The notes beneath the pieces are model-generated. The model was not told where the DNA came from. It ran no database searches and saw nothing but the letters and a program-made list of their open reading frames with translations. Shown here in pieces: positions 14,859 through 52,132 of a stretch of DNA of 64,000 nt. The stretch comes from an archaeon GW2011_AR5 (lineage in GTDB: Archaea; Aenigmatarchaeota; Aenigmatarchaeia; GW2011-AR5): contig JWKQ01000002.1 in assembly GCA_000806115.1 (NCBI GenBank), positions 178,497 through 242,496 on the forward strand. Reading direction: 5' to 3'. Position numbers and translations under genes: made by a program. Position 1 is the first letter of the stretch. The number at the start of each line of letters is the position of its first letter.

Positions 14859-14883
14859 GTCTCTCTGCGCCCCGGCTATGATT

Positions 14884-14973
14884 ATAGTGCTACAAGAGAA
14901 CAATCTGGATGTGATTTTCTTGTGCACTATATGTGAACCCAGAAAACATGTAGGGATTCTTTTCTGGGTTAAC
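14884..14973 (-). repeat. Two-hairpin dispersed element, copy 3
   Basis: Minus strand: TTAACCCAGAA.../TTCTGGGTTCAC (stem 1), then TATAGTGCACAAGA.../TCTTGTAGCACTATAA (stem 2 with a single bulged A on the 3' arm). It ends ~25 bases before the preferred ATG of the TadC gene, so it forms its 5' leader. The loop GTAGGGATTCTTTT (plus strand) is also found in the copy at 22504-22599. Confidence 0.8.
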
Positions 14974-15033
14974 TATATAATTAACATTTGGGGTTAAAAA
15001 TACACGGACGAATCAGTAATTTCCCTGTGATGC

Positions 15034-22503: not shown

Positions 22504-22599
22504 TATAGTGAACCTCAATTCATGTAGGGATTCTTTTGCGGGTTCACTTATAGTGTCCAAGTAAGTATAATATCTTAAAGTTTACTTGGAGCACTATAA
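22504..22599 (+). repeat. Two-hairpin dispersed element, copy 5
   Basis: GTGAACC.../GGTTCAC, then ATAGTGTCCAAGTAA.../TTTACTTGGAGCACTATAA with one bulged G. It ends two bases before the ATG of the regulator at 22602, so the element is that gene's whole 5' leader. Confidence 0.82.
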
Positions 22600-23695: not shown

Positions 23696-23732
23696 TGTAA
23701 AATAATGTTCTGATTTCATATATATAGTTATA

Positions 23733-23896
23733 GTGAACCCAGAAAATAAACAGGACATGAATTCTGGGTTCACAGATAGTTCCCAAGGAATTAATATCAG
23801 TAATGTTTCCTTGGAGAACTATAACCCAGAAAAAAACTTAGAACATTTTTGGGTTATAGTGAACCCGCAAAAGAATCCGGACGTGTTTGTGGGCCC
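23733..23896 (+). repeat. Two-hairpin dispersed element, copy 7, with extra hairpins
   Basis: GTGAACCCAGAA.../TTCTGGGTTCAC, then ATAGTTCCCAAGGAA.../TTTCCTTGGAGAACTATAA. Two more hairpins follow: ATAACCCAGAAA.../TTTTTGGGTTAT and GAACCCGCAAA/TTTGTGGG. The first 93 bases are nearly identical to the copy inside the fibrillarin gene, pointing to recent spread. With copy 6 it fills most of the 23481-23933 gap. Confidence 0.85.
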
Positions 23897-30598: not shown

Positions 30599-31564
30599 AT
30601 GAAAGCGCTTGTAGCAAGAAGCCCGGCGGGGTTTTTTGCCTTTTCCGAGAACGGAGAGCTTCTTTACTATAAGCTATGGAACCAGAAAACAGCCCTCGAG
30701 AAGTTCGCTTCCAGGGAATTGGACAGGGATTTCATTGCGGGGCTGTCAGGCTACACGCTGGAAGAGTCGCCCAAGGCATATGGTTTTCTGCGAAAAAACT
30801 TCCGCGAATATGCAAAGACGCTCGGTTTTGCCAAGGACGACGGCGAGCTGAACGAATTTCTCTCGGGTTTCTCCATTGGACTGTCAAAGAGGAATCTCAT
30901 GGGCACCATAGGCAGGGACCGCCTTGTCGTTCAGTCTGTACGTTCGCTGGACGACATCAGCCGCGCGGTTAACGTATTTCTTGAGAGACTCTACGAGTGG
31001 TTTTCGCTGCATTATCCCGAGATGAAAAATGCAAGCGTCAAGGACATAGTGCTCAAGCATGGCAGGAGGGACAACATTCCGGGCTTCAAGTCCAGCACAG
31101 GCGTGGACCTCGGCGAGGAGGACGAGAAAGCGGTGGCGGAGTTTGCCAAAGCCATAGACGGACTGGAAAAGGAGAAGAAGCTCCTTGAGAAATACGTATC
31201 TTCCGCAATGAAGGAAATCGCGCCCAACTTTGCCGCGCTCGTCGACCCGCTTCTAGGGGCGCGGATTGTCGCGGCGGCGGGCTCGCTTGAAAAACTGGCA
31301 AGGATGCCTGCTTCAACAATACAGCTTCTCGGCGCAGAAAAAGCCCTGTTTCGTCATCTTCATCAGAAGGGAAAAAGCCCAAAGTACGGCATAATTTACA
31401 ACTCGCCGCTGGTGCAGAACGCGGGCGAGCACAAGGGAAAAGTAGCAAGGATTTTATCTTCGAAGCTTATGCTGGCAGCGCGCATAGATTATTATTCCGG
31501 CAGGGACGAATCTGAAAAACTGAAACGCGAACTTGATGAGGAGATAAGGAAGGTAAAAATATGA
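30599..31564 (+). CDS. nop5: Nop5 (Nop56/58-like) C/D box sRNP protein
   Basis: Scaffold of the 2'-O-methylation complex. The 321 aa have an N-terminal fibrillarin-binding domain, a coiled coil (residues ~100-215) and the C-terminal NOP domain (GARIVAAAGSLEKLARMPAS; LLGAEKALFRHL; KYGIIYNSPLV). The stop overlaps the fibrillarin start by 4 bases, as is usual for this pair. Confidence 0.95.
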   Translation: MKALVARSPAGFFAFSENGELLYYKLWNQKTALEKFASRELDRDFIAGLSGYTLEESPKAYGFLRKNFREYAKTLGFAKDDGELNEFLSGFSIGLSKRNLMGTIGRDRLVVQSVRSLDDISRAVNVFLERLYEWFSLHYPEMKNASVKDIVLKHGRRDNIPGFKSSTGVDLGEEDEKAVAEFAKAIDGLEKEKKLLEKYVSSAMKEIAPNFAALVDPLLGARIVAAAGSLEKLARMPASTIQLLGAEKALFRHLHQKGKSPKYGIIYNSPLVQNAGEHKGKVARILSSKLMLAARIDYYSGRDESEKLKRELDEEIRKVKI

Positions 31565-32388
31565 AAGAAATATTTTCCGGCGTATTCAGGGACGGAAACA
31601 GGGTTTACACGGCTAATCTTAACCCCGGGAAGAGCGTCTACGGAGAAAAACTGCTGGATATAGTGAACCCAGAAAAGAAACACGACATGAATTCTGGGTT
31701 CACAGATAGTTCCCAAGGAAATAATACAAGAAAGAACGAAGTTCTTTCTGTACAGCAAGAATCGAAGATTCTTGCTCGTATCCATAATGTTTCCTTGGAG
31801 AACTATAAACAGGCAGACGCAAAACAAACAGACGCCGAAGGCGTCATGCAGCTCAGAGAATGGGATCCGAGAAGAAGCAAACTCGGCGCCGCTATAACAA
31901 ACGGCTTGAAGGAATTGCCTGTCAAGCCGGGAAGCGTAGTTCTTTACCTTGGAGCTTCGACAGGCACCACAATTTCTCACGTCAGCGATATTGTAGGAAA
32001 AGACGGTTTTGTTTATGGCATTGAGTTTGCAGAGAGAGTTCTGAGGAATCTTCTGGACCTGGCGAACCGAAGAAAGAACATAGCGTCGATGCTCGGCGAC
32101 GCAAGAAAGACGGAACAATACAGGTGGGTTGAGGAATGCGATGTTGTGTTCTGCGACATAGCAGATCCCCAGGAAACGGAGATAGCAATCCGCAACTGCG
32201 AGTTCCTGAAGAAGGGCGGATACCTGATGATAGCGATAAAATCCCAGAGCATAGACGTCACGAAGAAACCGAAAGACGTGTACGAACAGGAGAAAAACAA
32301 GCTGGAGAAGGCAGGCTTCAGGATTATACAGATGATTGACCTTGAGCCGCACGAAGAGAAGCATGCCATGATTGTTGCAAAGAAGTGA
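31561..32388 (+). CDS. flpA: Fibrillarin with in-frame repeat insertion
   Basis: S-adenosylmethionine 2'-O-methyltransferase of the C/D sRNP. The 275 aa compare with the usual ~225. The core is normal: YLGASTGTTISHVSDIVG (SAM site), VYGIEFAERVLRNLL, DVVFCDIADP and GYLMIAIKSQSID. Between VYGEKLLD and REWDPRRSKLGAA, normally nearly adjacent, lie ~65 extra residues encoded by the two-hairpin element (31659-31808) and the palindrome (31810-31855), all in frame. The N-terminal partner-binding part precedes the insertion. Confidence 0.95.
   Translation: MKEIFSGVFRDGNRVYTANLNPGKSVYGEKLLDIVNPEKKHDMNSGFTDSSQGNNTRKNEVLSVQQESKILARIHNVSLENYKQADAKQTDAEGVMQLREWDPRRSKLGAAITNGLKELPVKPGSVVLYLGASTGTTISHVSDIVGKDGFVYGIEFAERVLRNLLDLANRRKNIASMLGDARKTEQYRWVEECDVVFCDIADPQETEIAIRNCEFLKKGGYLMIAIKSQSIDVTKKPKDVYEQEKNKLEKAGFRIIQMIDLEPHEEKHAMIVAKK
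31659..31808 (+). repeat. Two-hairpin dispersed element, copy 8, inside fibrillarin
   Basis: Same element as 23733-23825: GTGAACCCAGAA/TTCTGGGTTCAC and CCCAAGGAAA/TTTCCTTGGAGAACTATAA. It carries a ~70-base addition in the second loop made of two hairpins, AGAAAGAACGAAGTTCTTTC and CAAGAATCGAAGATTCTTG. It contributes ~50 codons to fibrillarin without a stop. Confidence 0.88.
31810..31855 (+). repeat. Coding palindrome, copy in fibrillarin
   Basis: Core GACGCCGAAGGCGTC flanked by CAAAACAAACA and ATGCAGCTC; translated QTDAEGVMQL. The same core and reading frame occur in ileS (35521-35565) and the AMP phosphorylase gene (51631-51678). Confidence 0.8.
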
Positions 32389-34108: not shown

Positions 34109-37006
34109 CTATTCGTATATTTTTTGCAGCGTCTCTATTTTGAAAGAGACTTTTTCGTCCTCCAGCTGCACCTGTCCCGTAGGCTTCTCTATGGGGCCGA
34201 ATATTATGTTCTTGGCGCCGACCTTGTCTCGTATCTCTCTTTCAAACTCCTGCATGGAGTCGTTGTCAAGGTAAAGGACAATCTTGTCTTCGACAATGAG
34301 TTTCTGCAGTTTCCTGTGGCTCTGGATTTCCCTAAGAAGTTCGCGCATCAGAGCCTCCGCCTTGAGCACGTTCTTGCTCACATATACTGTGCCCTTGGAG
34401 AAAGCTTTCGAGTAGCCTTCAGATTTTCCATGCGAAATATATTTTGAATTTGTCATGTTCTTCAGGACCTTTTCAAACGTTATGAGGCAGCCCTTCACGG
34501 TTTCATCGTCGCTTTCGATGTAAACGTTCTCCACGGGCCATCTTATCTTTACGTTGTTCTCCTTTCTTACTGCGTTGGCAGTCTCGATTATTTCCTGGAC
34601 TATTTCCATCTCTTTCTCAATCTGCGGGTTTGCGTATTTCTTGTAAGGCTTCGGCCATTTGCACATGTGGACGCTCTCTTCCTTTCCGAGCTCCCCGATC
34701 TGATAAACGTGTTCCGCGAAGAACGGGCATGCGGGCGCAAGAAGTTTCGAGCACTCTTTTGCAACCTCGAAGAGCGCGAACATTGCCGATTGCTTGTCGC
34801 TTCCGGAGTATGTCGGCCATACGCGATCCCTTACCATCTTGATGTATACCCGCGAGAAGTCATTCAGCATGAAGTTGGTTATGGCGTTAACCGCCTTGTG
34901 TATGTTGTAGGTTCTGTAATGTTTCGTAACTTCCTCTATCAGGTTGTTGAGGCGCGAGAGTATCCATGCGTCCTCAGGCTCCAGGTCTTTCACTTTTTTC
35001 GCTTTCGGGGCGTAGCTCTTGACATAATTGTAGGTGTTCTCGAGAACCATGAATGATTTCGCTATGGCGTCTACATCAGTCCACTTGAAATAGAAATCCT
35101 CCCACGGAGCCGACGAGAGCAGGTAGAGGCGAAGCACGTCGCGACCGTACTTGTCTATGACTTCCTCGGGCGATATTATGTTGCCCTTGCTCTTGGACAT
35201 CTTGCTGCCGTGCGCATCGAGAGTGAATCCGTGAAAAAGTATGTTCTTGAACGGCGCCTTGTTGAATGTTATGACGCCGGTTATGAGCTGCGAGTTCCAC
35301 CAGCCCCTTATCTGGTCGGGACCTTCTATGTTCAGGTCAGCTGGCCACATATTCTCGAAAAGCTCCTTCCTGTTCGGATAGCCGAGCGATGCCCAGCTTG
35401 CAAGTCCCGAGTCAAACCATACGTCCAGTACGTCATGAATGCGGCTCATTTCTTTCCCGCATTTGCAGGGAAGCCTGATATCGTCTATGTAAGGCCTGTG
35501 CAAATCCTTCAAAGTGTAAGACGCAGATTGCATGACGCCTTTGGCGTCTTTCTGTTGTGCGTCAGTCAGTTTCGGAAGCTCGTTTGATGAGCCGATTATT
35601 TTTACCTCTCCACAGCTGCATGTCCATATCGGCAGCGGTATTCCCCAGTAGCGCTGCCTGGATATCGGCCAGTCGCCCAGGCTGTTCAGCCAGTTCTCGA
35701 AGCGCTGTCCGGCCCATTCAGGATACCATTTTACTTTTTTGTTCTCCTTGAGCAGTTCCTTCCTGATTTGCGTAACCTTGAAAAACCATTGTGTGACTGC
35801 CATCTCAAGGAGCGGCGAGCTGCACCGCCAGCAGAGCGGGTAGTCGTGAGTCACTTTTTCCTCGTGCAGAAGAAGGTTTCGTTCTTTTAGTATGTCAATT
35901 ATCTTTCTGTCTGCAGTCTTGGCAAAAATCCCCGCAAACTGCCCGCATGTTTCGTTGAATGTTCCGTCAAGTTTGAGCGGCGAGATTATTGACAGTCCGT
36001 TCTCCACGCCCACTTTATAGTCTTCCTGGCCGAAACCCGGTGCAGTGTGAACCAGCCCCGTGCCCGATTCCAGCTCAACATACTGTTCTGAAAGCACAAC
36101 GCGGTGTTTTACAGGTTCCTGAAACTTGAATATGTCGATGAGTGGGTGCTCGTACTCGAGCCCGTCAAGCTTCTTGCCTTTCATCGTTCCGATTATCTTA
36201 TAGCTAGTCACGCCGGCACGCTTCATCACGTCGTCCATCAGGACTTTCGCCATTATCAGTGTTTCTTTGCCAACTTTCACCTTCACGTAGTCTGCAGAGG
36301 GCTTCGCCATTATCCCCGTGTTGGACGGCAGCGTCCACGGCGTGGTTGTCCATATTAGCAGAAAGCCATCCTTTGTAGGGAATTTTACATAGACCGACGG
36401 GTCTGACACCTTTGTATACTCGATTTCATTGTATGCTACGGCAGTCTCGCAGTGCGGGCAGACATGCACGGGATAAAGTCCCTGGTAAAGCAGACCTTTC
36501 TCGAATGCTATCTTGAACGTGTGCCACGCCCCTTCTATGTATTCGTTGTCGAGGGTAAGGTACGGGTTCTTCCAGTCCATCCACACGCCCAAGTTCGCGA
36601 ACTGCTGGTTCATGATGTCTATGTATTTCGTGGCAAATTTCCTGCATTCGTGCACGAATTTCTCTATGCCGAGCTTCTCTATGTCGCTCTTCGATTTTAT
36701 CTGAAAATCTTTCTCAACTTTGTTCTCTATCGGCAGGCCGTGCGTATCGTAGCCGGGCTGGTCCCACACGTCGAATCCGCTCATCCTCCAGAATCGGATG
36801 TATGTGTCCTTGAGAATCTTGTTCCACGCAGTTCCCATGTGTATGGAGCCTGTTGCATAAGGAGGACCGTCAAGAAAATAGAACTTTTTCCGGGAACTGC
36901 CTGACGCTCCGCGCCCTTTTGACGACTCTTTCAGCTTTTCGTATATACTCCTGGCTTCCCAAAAGCGTTTTATTTCTTCCTCATGCGACTTGTTCATGTT
37001 TAACAC
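34109..37006 (-). CDS. ileS: Isoleucyl-tRNA synthetase
   Basis: Class I enzyme, 965 aa (or three fewer from the second Met). Signature PYATGSIHMGTAWNK (HIGH), editing domain with LLIWTTTPWTLPSNTG, tryptophan/zinc part, KMSKSKGN at ~620 and an anticodon-binding helical domain. About 15-20 extra residues near residue 490 (LTDAQQKDAKGVMQSASYTL), between VKIIGSSNEL and DLHRPYID, come from the coding palindrome at 35521-35565. Confidence 0.96.
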   Translation of the reverse strand: MLNMNKSHEEEIKRFWEARSIYEKLKESSKGRGASGSSRKKFYFLDGPPYATGSIHMGTAWNKILKDTYIRFWRMSGFDVWDQPGYDTHGLPIENKVEKDFQIKSKSDIEKLGIEKFVHECRKFATKYIDIMNQQFANLGVWMDWKNPYLTLDNEYIEGAWHTFKIAFEKGLLYQGLYPVHVCPHCETAVAYNEIEYTKVSDPSVYVKFPTKDGFLLIWTTTPWTLPSNTGIMAKPSADYVKVKVGKETLIMAKVLMDDVMKRAGVTSYKIIGTMKGKKLDGLEYEHPLIDIFKFQEPVKHRVVLSEQYVELESGTGLVHTAPGFGQEDYKVGVENGLSIISPLKLDGTFNETCGQFAGIFAKTADRKIIDILKERNLLLHEEKVTHDYPLCWRCSSPLLEMAVTQWFFKVTQIRKELLKENKKVKWYPEWAGQRFENWLNSLGDWPISRQRYWGIPLPIWTCSCGEVKIIGSSNELPKLTDAQQKDAKGVMQSASYTLKDLHRPYIDDIRLPCKCGKEMSRIHDVLDVWFDSGLASWASLGYPNRKELFENMWPADLNIEGPDQIRGWWNSQLITGVITFNKAPFKNILFHGFTLDAHGSKMSKSKGNIISPEEVIDKYGRDVLRLYLLSSAPWEDFYFKWTDVDAIAKSFMVLENTYNYVKSYAPKAKKVKDLEPEDAWILSRLNNLIEEVTKHYRTYNIHKAVNAITNFMLNDFSRVYIKMVRDRVWPTYSGSDKQSAMFALFEVAKECSKLLAPACPFFAEHVYQIGELGKEESVHMCKWPKPYKKYANPQIEKEMEIVQEIIETANAVRKENNVKIRWPVENVYIESDDETVKGCLITFEKVLKNMTNSKYISHGKSEGYSKAFSKGTVYVSKNVLKAEALMRELLREIQSHRKLQKLIVEDKIVLYLDNDSMQEFEREIRDKVGAKNIIFGPIEKPTGQVQLEDEKVSFKIETLQKIYE
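35521..35565 (-). repeat. Coding palindrome, copy in ileS
   Basis: Minus strand: GACGCACAACAGAAA, core GACGCCAAAGGCGTC, ATGCAATCTGCGTC. It is translated AQQKDAKGVMQS. The outer GACGCA.../...TGCGTC arms extend the palindrome to about 44 bases. Confidence 0.82.
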
Positions 37007-37325: not shown

Positions 37326-37358
37326 AAAGAAGCAGGGAAAATTATCGGTTTTATTACT

Positions 37359-37447
37359 GTGAAATCAGAAAAGATTTTTCAATAATTCTGATTTCACATA
37401 TAGTTCGCAAGGAAATAATAGATTTCTTTATCCTTGCAGAACTATAA
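37359..37447 (+). repeat. Two-hairpin dispersed element, copy 9
   Basis: GTGAAATCAGAA/TTCTGATTTCAC and ATAGTTCGCAAGGA/TCCTTGCAGAACTATAA with one bulged A. Compared with copies 7 and 8, bases in both stems differ but remain paired (for example ACCC/GGGT becomes AATC/GATT, and CCAAGG/CCTTGG becomes GCAAGG/CCTTGC). Confidence 0.85.
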
Positions 37448-50611: not shown

Positions 50612-52132
50612 ATGAAGATGAAAGCAAAGGTTCTCCCGTTGAACGCCGGCGGGAAGATGATAGGAATAATCAACGAGAAAGACGCCCTTGAGCTTGGCGT
50701 TCATCCGCTTGACAAGATAGTTATGACAAGGGGGCCGAAGAAAGCAACGCTCACTGTCGACACAACCAAGAATTTTGTAAAGCGCGGCACGATCTTGCTC
50801 TACGACGATGTGAAAGAAGTCATGCATATCAGGAGCGGCGATGCAGTGCATGTCGAGCCGAGAATGCCGCTCGTGAGCAAGGCTTACATAAGGAAAAAAA
50901 CTGACGGCAGAGAGCTAAGTTATCTGGAATTGAGGGCGATAGTAGACGACGTCATAGCGCGCAATTTAAACGATCTGGAGCTTGCGTCCTTCATCACCGC
51001 GCTTCACATACACGGCTTAACACTTAACGAGAGCATTGATTTCTCCAAGGCTATGATAGAAACCGGAAAGAGCCTTAAGTTTCCGGGCACGGTAGTCGAC
51101 AAGCATTCCATAGGCGGTGTGCCGGGGGACAAAACCTCGATGCTGGTGGTGCCGATAATTGCCGCTTCCGGACTTACAATACCGAAAACATCCTCGCGTT
51201 CCATAACATCGCCTTCCGGCACCGCTGACAGGATGGAAATACTTGCGCCTGTCGATCTGCATATTGACGACATAAAGAGGGTTGTGAAGAGAACGAAAGG
51301 ATGTCTGGTATGGGGAGGATCTGTCGACATCGCCCCGGCAGATGATCTTTTCATACGCATAGAGCACCCGCTCGGCCTTGACCCGCTGCTCCTGCCGTCG
51401 GTGATGAGCAAGAAAAAATCCGTCGGGTGCAAGTATCTTGTGATAGACATACCGACAGGTGATACAAAAATCCATACCAAAGAGGATGCGGAAAAACTGG
51501 CCCGTGATTTCATAGCAATGGGGAGGAGCCTAGGAATAAAGGTTGACTGCGCAATCACGCGCGGAGACCAGCCTGTAGGCTACGCCGTCGGTCCGGCTTT
51601 GGAGGCAAGGGAGGCGCTGGAGGTTATCATGAACGTGCAACAGACTGACGCCAAAGGCGTCGTGCAACGCAGCGACGTCTTCGACAAAGCGGCCTCGGTA
51701 GCAGGCGTACTGCTCAGAATGGCAGGCAAAGGTAACAAGAAAATAGCGGAGCTTATGATAAAAAGCGGAAAAGCTGAAAAGAAGCTGCGGGAAATAATAG
51801 ATGCGCAGGGCGGGAATCCTGGCGTGAAACCTGGGGATATAGAAGTCGGCGCCTTCAGCTTCAGGGTACGTTCGAAAACCGGCGGAACTGTTTCAACCAT
51901 CAGCAACGCAGCGCTTGTCGAAATCTGCCGCACTTCCGGCACGCCGAAAGACCGCGGCGCAGGCGTTCTTCTGAACAAGAAGATCGGTGATCCGGTGCGC
52001 AGGGGAGAAGTTCTCTTCACAATTTTTGCTGAGAAGCGCCGGAAGCTGAACTCTGCGGTAAAAACTTCAAAATCCTGCGAGGTGTACGGAATTCTGACGG
52101 GAAAAAGAAGCATGCTTGTTGAGACTGTGTGA
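50612..52132 (+). CDS. deoA: AMP phosphorylase with palindrome insertion
   Basis: Splits nucleoside monophosphates with phosphate to give ribose 1,5-bisphosphate. The 506 aa have an N-terminal ~80-aa archaeal domain, then VDKHSIGGVPGDKTSMLVVP, TSSRSITSPSGTADRMEIL, GCLVWGGSVDIAPADD and CAITRGDQPVGYAVGPALEA. About 12 extra residues (VQQTDAKGVVQRSD) follow EALEVIMN, encoded by the palindrome at 51631-51678. No RuBisCO gene lies in the window. Confidence 0.95.
   Translation: MKMKAKVLPLNAGGKMIGIINEKDALELGVHPLDKIVMTRGPKKATLTVDTTKNFVKRGTILLYDDVKEVMHIRSGDAVHVEPRMPLVSKAYIRKKTDGRELSYLELRAIVDDVIARNLNDLELASFITALHIHGLTLNESIDFSKAMIETGKSLKFPGTVVDKHSIGGVPGDKTSMLVVPIIAASGLTIPKTSSRSITSPSGTADRMEILAPVDLHIDDIKRVVKRTKGCLVWGGSVDIAPADDLFIRIEHPLGLDPLLLPSVMSKKKSVGCKYLVIDIPTGDTKIHTKEDAEKLARDFIAMGRSLGIKVDCAITRGDQPVGYAVGPALEAREALEVIMNVQQTDAKGVVQRSDVFDKAASVAGVLLRMAGKGNKKIAELMIKSGKAEKKLREIIDAQGGNPGVKPGDIEVGAFSFRVRSKTGGTVSTISNAALVEICRTSGTPKDRGAGVLLNKKIGDPVRRGEVLFTIFAEKRRKLNSAVKTSKSCEVYGILTGKRSMLVETV
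51631..51678 (+). repeat. Coding palindrome, copy in AMP phosphorylase
   Basis: AACGTGCAACAGACT, core GACGCCAAAGGCGTC, GTGCAACGCAGCGACGTC; translated VQQTDAKGVVQRS. It keeps the same frame as the copies in fibrillarin and ileS. Confidence 0.82.

Follow-up and report, generated by a model that had tools for sequence, protein, structure and literature searches.

The fibrillarin gene and its insert

The window analysed here, a 64,000-nt stretch from the genome of the archaeon GW2011_AR5, contains flpA, which encodes a fibrillarin-like rRNA/tRNA 2'-O-methyltransferase, as well as copies of short hairpin elements in and between genes (Table 1). The flpA product scored 262.4 bits against Pfam family PF01269 (Fibrillarin), and a sequence search identified 1g8a as the nearest solved structure (E = 1.7e-59). 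The alignment to 1g8a is interrupted at query residues 33 to 97, where 1g8a has four residues. This break consists of three parts: a twin-hairpin element (E1), a second element nested within it (E3), and a separate small element 20 nt downstream of E1 (E2). Relatives of flpA among named records belong to the Nanoarchaeia/Woesearchaeota. No further full flpA match was found in this genome, but a second intact copy is possible, because the assembly is only 87.6% complete.

A sequence-only reading had placed an insert of about 50 stop-free codons at 31659-31808, between the residues VYGEKLLD and REWDPRR. The insert is real and lies in flpA, but it ends at 31807, the last position adding one flanking A, and the gap between the two motifs also holds E2. 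E1 with E3 keeps the reading frame, contains zero stops, and adds 147 nt (49 codons) rather than 149, since one of its TA dinucleotides is the duplicated target. The predicted peptides encoded within it include NEVLSVQQESK and HDMNSGFTDSSQGNNTR, and its fold is well beyond chance (z = -9.9 as RNA and -11.2 as DNA); perfect hairpins across the window are in small excess (12, compared with 6-8 in five shuffles).

Both E1 and E3 are absent from flpA in all three same-genus genomes examined, whose empty sites are IYGEKILGDKREWDP (G001), VYGEKLLGDKREWDP (G002), and VYGEKLIDEKQGAKQLREWDPRR (G003), and the proposal that the insert is young is borne out by this comparison. When the insert and one TA are taken out of flpA, the result, EKLLDKQADAKQ, has the same length as EKLIDEKQGAKQ of G003; taking out E1/E3 and one TA leaves VYGEKLLDKQADAKQTDAEGVMQLREWDPRR, which matches G003 in length except for the eight E2 codons.

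Table 1. Genes and hairpin elements in the window, with positions counted from its first nucleotide
Feature	Position	Strand	Details
flpA	31561..32388	+	275 aa including insert; ORF, PF01269, 1g8a
E1 with nested E3	31659..31807	+	149 nt; TATAG...CTATA, outer TA duplicated, net 147 nt
E1 hairpin P1	31663..31703	+	GTGAACCCAGAA / TTCTGGGTTCAC; covariation in 80 aligned copies, fold predictions
E1 hairpin P2	31706..31806	+	ATAGTTCCCAAGGAA / TTCCTTGGAGAACTAT; loop split by E3; covariation, fold predictions
Nested E3	31725..31780	+	TACA-hairpin-GTAC-hairpin-CGTA; net gain 54 nt with TA duplicated; also found elsewhere, solo or nested
E2 in flpA	~31828..31851	+	core GACGCCGAAGGCGTC at 31831-31845; codons TDAEGVMQ; +24 nt vs G003
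E2 core in ileS	35534..35548	-	region +54 nt vs G003 ileS
E2 core in AMP phosphorylase-like gene	51647..51661	+	+27 nt vs G003
E1 copy, intergenic	23729..23823	+	90/95 identical to flpA E1 minus E3
E1 copy	14883..14977	-	
E1 copy, diverged	37355..37446	+	
E1 copy, diverged	22504..22598	+	

E1 and the nested element E3

E1 is a 95-nt twin-hairpin unit, and 81 of the 106 copies collected are 95-97 nt long. A covariance model built on 17 copies gave 46 matches in this genome and a per-genome maximum of 85 (G007) across 40 genomes, with G020 and G030 also rich in E1. Matches were present in 21 of these genomes: 17 of 19 in the same family, 4 of 12 in other families of the order, and 0 of 9 in other orders of the class. 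The base 5' of the element is T in 83 of the 106 copies and the base 3' is A in 95. A near-identical intergenic copy had been recognised from sequence alone and indeed matches flpA E1 once E3 is removed (Table 1); the entire 149 nt of the insert is 140/149 identical to C1:223508-223656, with eight of the nine differences lying outside the stems and one costing an E3 hairpin its outermost pair.

Among 80 aligned copies from several genomes (78 distinct), both sides had changed in 18 of the 26 stem pairs, and 95.3% of stem cells were paired, compared with 81.3% after shuffling and 30-44% when the alignment was slid. Because one-sided changes of the G-U type are rare beside 235 double-changed cells, this pattern points to a constraint that acts on DNA hairpins. 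As a coding element, E1 was rejected: 27 of the 78 distinct copies keep the flpA frame open, compared with 6 when shuffled, and a minus frame is open in 29, so that we do not claim a conserved E1 peptide. A match to Rfam TD-1 on the minus strand was below threshold (E = 0.12; 24.3 bits, with 64.5 required) and was likewise discarded.

E1 is depleted in coding sequence. After its removal a spanning ORF was found at 25 of 100 sites, compared with 647 of 1040 TA sites drawn at random from those loci. Three of the 25 have a recognisable protein on both sides, namely flpA, RidA, and Doc. For RidA the call came from Pfam, and for Doc from Pfam on one flank and visual reading of the other. The rest were judged by eye alone to be leaders or chance ORFs. 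The Fic/Doc gene of G007 is split by E1 (net 95 nt, frame broken), and once E1 and one TA are excised the reading frame closes up again as QMEF-ILSKIRSS. Pfam assigns the downstream piece to PF02661 and gives no match for the upstream piece. RidA of G007 is also split out of frame, its pieces matching positions 10-68 and 72-120 of the 121 in PF01042. This insertion may be a compound event, since the TA logic there needs ~15 extra flanking bases. The corresponding site in G003 lacks the intergenic E1 present at C2:332952, and the alignment there is interrupted at the TA, consistent with target duplication. Separately, two groups of G007 copies (L124, L125, and L126; L114, L127, and L128) score identically within each group, which suggests very recent spread there.

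The two hairpins that had been noted within the second loop of the insert are present, and they are part of E3, a separate recurrent element. The general E3 unit reads TACA-hairpin-GTAC-hairpin-TGTA; its stems are perfect and its loops short, mostly three bases long. In flpA the hairpins are AGAAAGAAC-gaa-GTTCTTTCT and AGCAAGAATC-gaa-GATTCTTGCT. Several E1 copies carry E3 at their central GATA junction with the TA duplicated, and in the flpA and C1:223508 copies it lies in the P2 loop. A scan found 10 E3 units in 257 kb of this genome, made up of stretches chosen for E1/E2 and giving no density estimate, and 7 in 263 kb of relatives.

E2, a small element inside genes

The E2 core, GACGCCRAAGGCGTC, has 12 exact copies in this genome and 37 in 12 others (30 genomes searched, own included), and a reversed-pattern control gave zero matches in the 30 genomes. 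Conservation around the core runs from about -11 to +3 in these 49 copies. Comparison with empty sites in FlpA, L2, AMP phosphorylase, and IleS gave differences of 24, 27, 27, and 54 nt, all four being multiples of three; in ribosomal protein L2 the additional 27 nt relative to the G003 orthologue are in frame. The AMP phosphorylase copy is bracketed by a 7-nt direct repeat, GTGCAAC (51635-51641 and 51662-51668), the one clear target duplication for E2, and none is visible in flpA or L2.

We ran a Pfam scan on 40 of 59 candidate E2 ORFs and scanned FlpA separately. In twelve ORFs E2 lies inside the matched domain, and in ten of these it is read in the sense frame that gives DA[K/E]GV: AMP phosphorylase, IleS, a CoA-binding protein, and FlpA in this genome; EF-2 (G003), Elp3 (G016), and CysRS (G006) in relatives; and a metallo-beta-lactamase fold protein, cytidylate kinase, and riboflavin kinase in G005. 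PheRS-beta and HisRS, both of G005, use other frames. With L2, which was placed by its orthologues, the DA[K/E]GV frame accounts for 11 of 13. Since none of the core's six frames contains a stop, this bias suggests either selection for a hydrophilic peptide or directed insertion. The remaining copies are between genes or near gene ends, and genes disrupted by E2 are under-counted because detection requires an open frame.

Some further E2 contexts were observed. A 110-aa gene with no Pfam match (OB-fold-like by eye; L181, L200, and L011:4126-4140) has an E2 or E2-like segment at one common place in G003, G002, and this genome (with one mismatch here), and because of this common position the segment looks old and shared. 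In EF-2 of G003 (L183), E2 lies within the G domain directly before INLIDTPGHVDF, near a functional loop. The E2 core is also part of a longer intergenic repeat, AAGGCGCAT-E2 core-RGTCTGTCCGGTG..., in G016 and G011 (L203, L205, and L201). In addition, the ileS open frame is 1516 aa in G002 (C50, L081) and 1528 aa in G006 (C2, L082) compared with ~965 aa elsewhere, perhaps owing to an intein or a fusion.

Probable consequences for the protein and alternative explanations

The sequence-only reading had proposed modelling the insert on fibrillarin structures. In an AlphaFold2 model of FlpA (mean pLDDT 79.9), residues 43-88 fall below 50 and most of the core lies at 80-98; the alignment was 11 sequences deep, and low pLDDT is not proof of disorder. 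Predicted strands at residues 31-35 and 95-101 border the insert, and the leading Foldseek matches of the model are fibrillarins, with 1g8a first (TM by target 0.86). Together, these two predictions indicate that the insert extends the turn of an N-terminal beta-hairpin and leaves the methyltransferase fold alone. The insert is best explained as being translated into a floppy loop at the beta-hairpin tip of the fibrillarin N-terminal domain.

The insert belongs to a multicopy family with empty sites and TA duplication, and it leaves an open frame and an intact conserved core. We consider it very probable that it is a recent, non-autonomous, TA-targeting twin-hairpin element, E1 with nested E3, that is translated and tolerated. 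E1 carrying E3 would have entered the N-terminal beta-hairpin turn, beside the separate 24-nt palindromic E2, mobilised by a DNA-hairpin-recognising enzyme supplied in trans. The segment would then remain in the mRNA and be translated as 49 extra residues, probably unstructured, and the enzyme would continue to function. Tolerance would follow from the exposed turn at which it lies, a net length divisible by three, and the open frame; translation is the simplest account, since the segment is in frame and stop-free at a permissive turn of an essential gene.

Removal of the segment from the mRNA, either as an archaeal intron of the bulge-helix-bulge type or by other RNA processing, would leave a normal protein. 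Archaeal mRNA introns exist, and strong hairpins bracket the segment, but we inspected the predicted fold and found that P1 and P2 each fold on themselves and that no bulge-helix-bulge is present at the junctions. The net length is open and a multiple of three. Nor would removal need the four E2 length differences to be multiples of three. In RidA and Doc, E1 breaks the frame, as expected if nothing removes the element, whereas in the essential gene it preserves it. We regard such processing as improbable. Of the possibilities that had been raised from the sequence, translation, splicing, or a tolerated surface loop, it is translation as a tolerated loop, predicted to lie at the surface, that is best supported.

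Ribosomes might also skip the segment by translational bypass. The byp elements are likewise small, hairpin-bearing inserts in genes, and matched take-off and landing codons are a criterion for them; in flpA the codon before the insert is GAT and its last codon is TAT, which do not match. The insert is moreover in frame and without a stop, and most E1 copies are intergenic, making bypass very unlikely. It is just as hard to credit a misjoined repeat arising in assembly or binning. The assembly is a draft and E1 is a short repeat, but the TA duplication is precise, the net length is in frame and open, the insert differs at nine positions from its nearest full copy, with eight lying off the stems, and the same architecture recurs in other genomes along with empty sites. 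The original view of a recurrent, young, in-frame insertion holds, and it had missed the nesting of E3, the TA duplication, the family-wide spread, and E2.

Relation to known elements and possible mode of movement

The best-known palindromic elements within genes are those of Rickettsia and its relatives. The Rickettsia palindromic elements (RPEs) are described as lying in frame within genes (PMC10969869, PMC3733652), and the accounts in these sources resemble what we see here, namely short palindromic mobile elements that lie in frame in genes unrelated to each other and presumably functional, and that are read as additional peptide. In-frame insertions with empty orthologues (in G003 and others) were found for flpA, L2, ileS, and AMP phosphorylase, and the E1/E2 system may be an archaeal analogue of RPEs. 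The comparison is of published descriptions, and there are differences: the host is an archaeon, E1 is mostly intergenic with a TA duplication and nested E3, and E2 is far smaller, at 24-27 nt net per insertion compared with ~150 bp. E2 is also the size of the GTAG- and CGTC-tagged REPs, which are reported as 20-40 bp palindromes that are in some cases intragenic, but no unpaired terminal tag is evident beyond the stem of E2, and this genome has no match to the Y1 transposase family (PF01797).

E1 resembles the archaeal MITEs of Sulfolobus and Haloquadratum in being transposase-free, multicopy, ~100 nt long, and associated with target duplication: the 95-nt unit is too short for a transposase, TA stands at both ends, and removal with one TA restores both flpA and the Doc gene of G007. 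It differs in that its terminal inverted repeat is only TATAGT/ACTATA, it has two internal covarying hairpins, and we identified no parent transposon. The two transposase families searched were PF13358 (DDE_3, IS630-type) and PF01797; PF13358 was positive in 3 of 20 genomes, with none in this genome, G001-G003, or G007. The E1 model found no flanking ends around the transposase genes recovered, giving two weak matches in one locus (best E = 0.025).

An alternative to MITEs mobilised by a TA-duplicating DDE transposase is that E1 and E3 are ends-only derivatives of IS200/IS605-type elements moved by Y1, similar to PATEs, although we find this somewhat doubtful. Such a route of movement would not conflict with translation in flpA. 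Recognition of single-stranded DNA would fit two covarying hairpins with few G-U pairs, and genes for Y1 are present in 11 of the 40 genomes. The PATEs of Haloquadratum are likewise described with hairpins near both ends, as in E1, and with small repeats inside their palindromes, as E3 is in E1 (PMC3119063). The same source reports PATEs as lacking target duplication and some as IS605-derived (PMC3119063). E1, unlike these, has a symmetric T-TA-A target with TA at both ends, although a target ending in TA joined to an element ending in TA would look identical. Y1 matches are absent from G007, with its 85 E1 copies, as they are from this genome, and the Y1 genes of relatives have no E1 ends on both sides (E1 model, 20 of 21 Y1 matches); the flanks of four of 11 Y1 loci, read directly, showed no E1 ends. 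One E1 copy in G003 (C30) lies ~120 nt from a Y1 gene, but no copy stands on the other side, and we treated this as coincidence.

Implications

Two sorts of hairpin element are present in one essential gene of a DPANN-type archaeon, and sister species provide clean empty sites. In literature searches on palindromic and miniature inverted-repeat elements, no description of palindromic elements within genes of DPANN archaea came up. We give even odds to a broader proposal, that this archaeal family has an active set of DNA hairpins (E1, E3, and E2) whose 24-27 nt member, E2, has spread in frame, mostly as DA[K/E]GV, through core informational genes (L2, EF-2, IleS, CysRS, Elp3, and fibrillarin). 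If true, it would give archaea their first in-gene palindromic system, perhaps also the smallest mobile source of protein loops yet known, and the hairpin elements of the family would be moved by a hairpin-recognising enzyme. The two elements in flpA, with their empty sites, allow tests of how peptide segments are supplied to conserved proteins by mobile DNA, and of which enzyme moves elements as short as ~27 nt. They are also a warning for phylogenetics, where the core proteins of these lineages serve as markers: insertions in them can be mobile DNA. In this tiny-genome archaeon, the gene of an essential RNA-modifying enzyme has been entered without its reading frame being broken.
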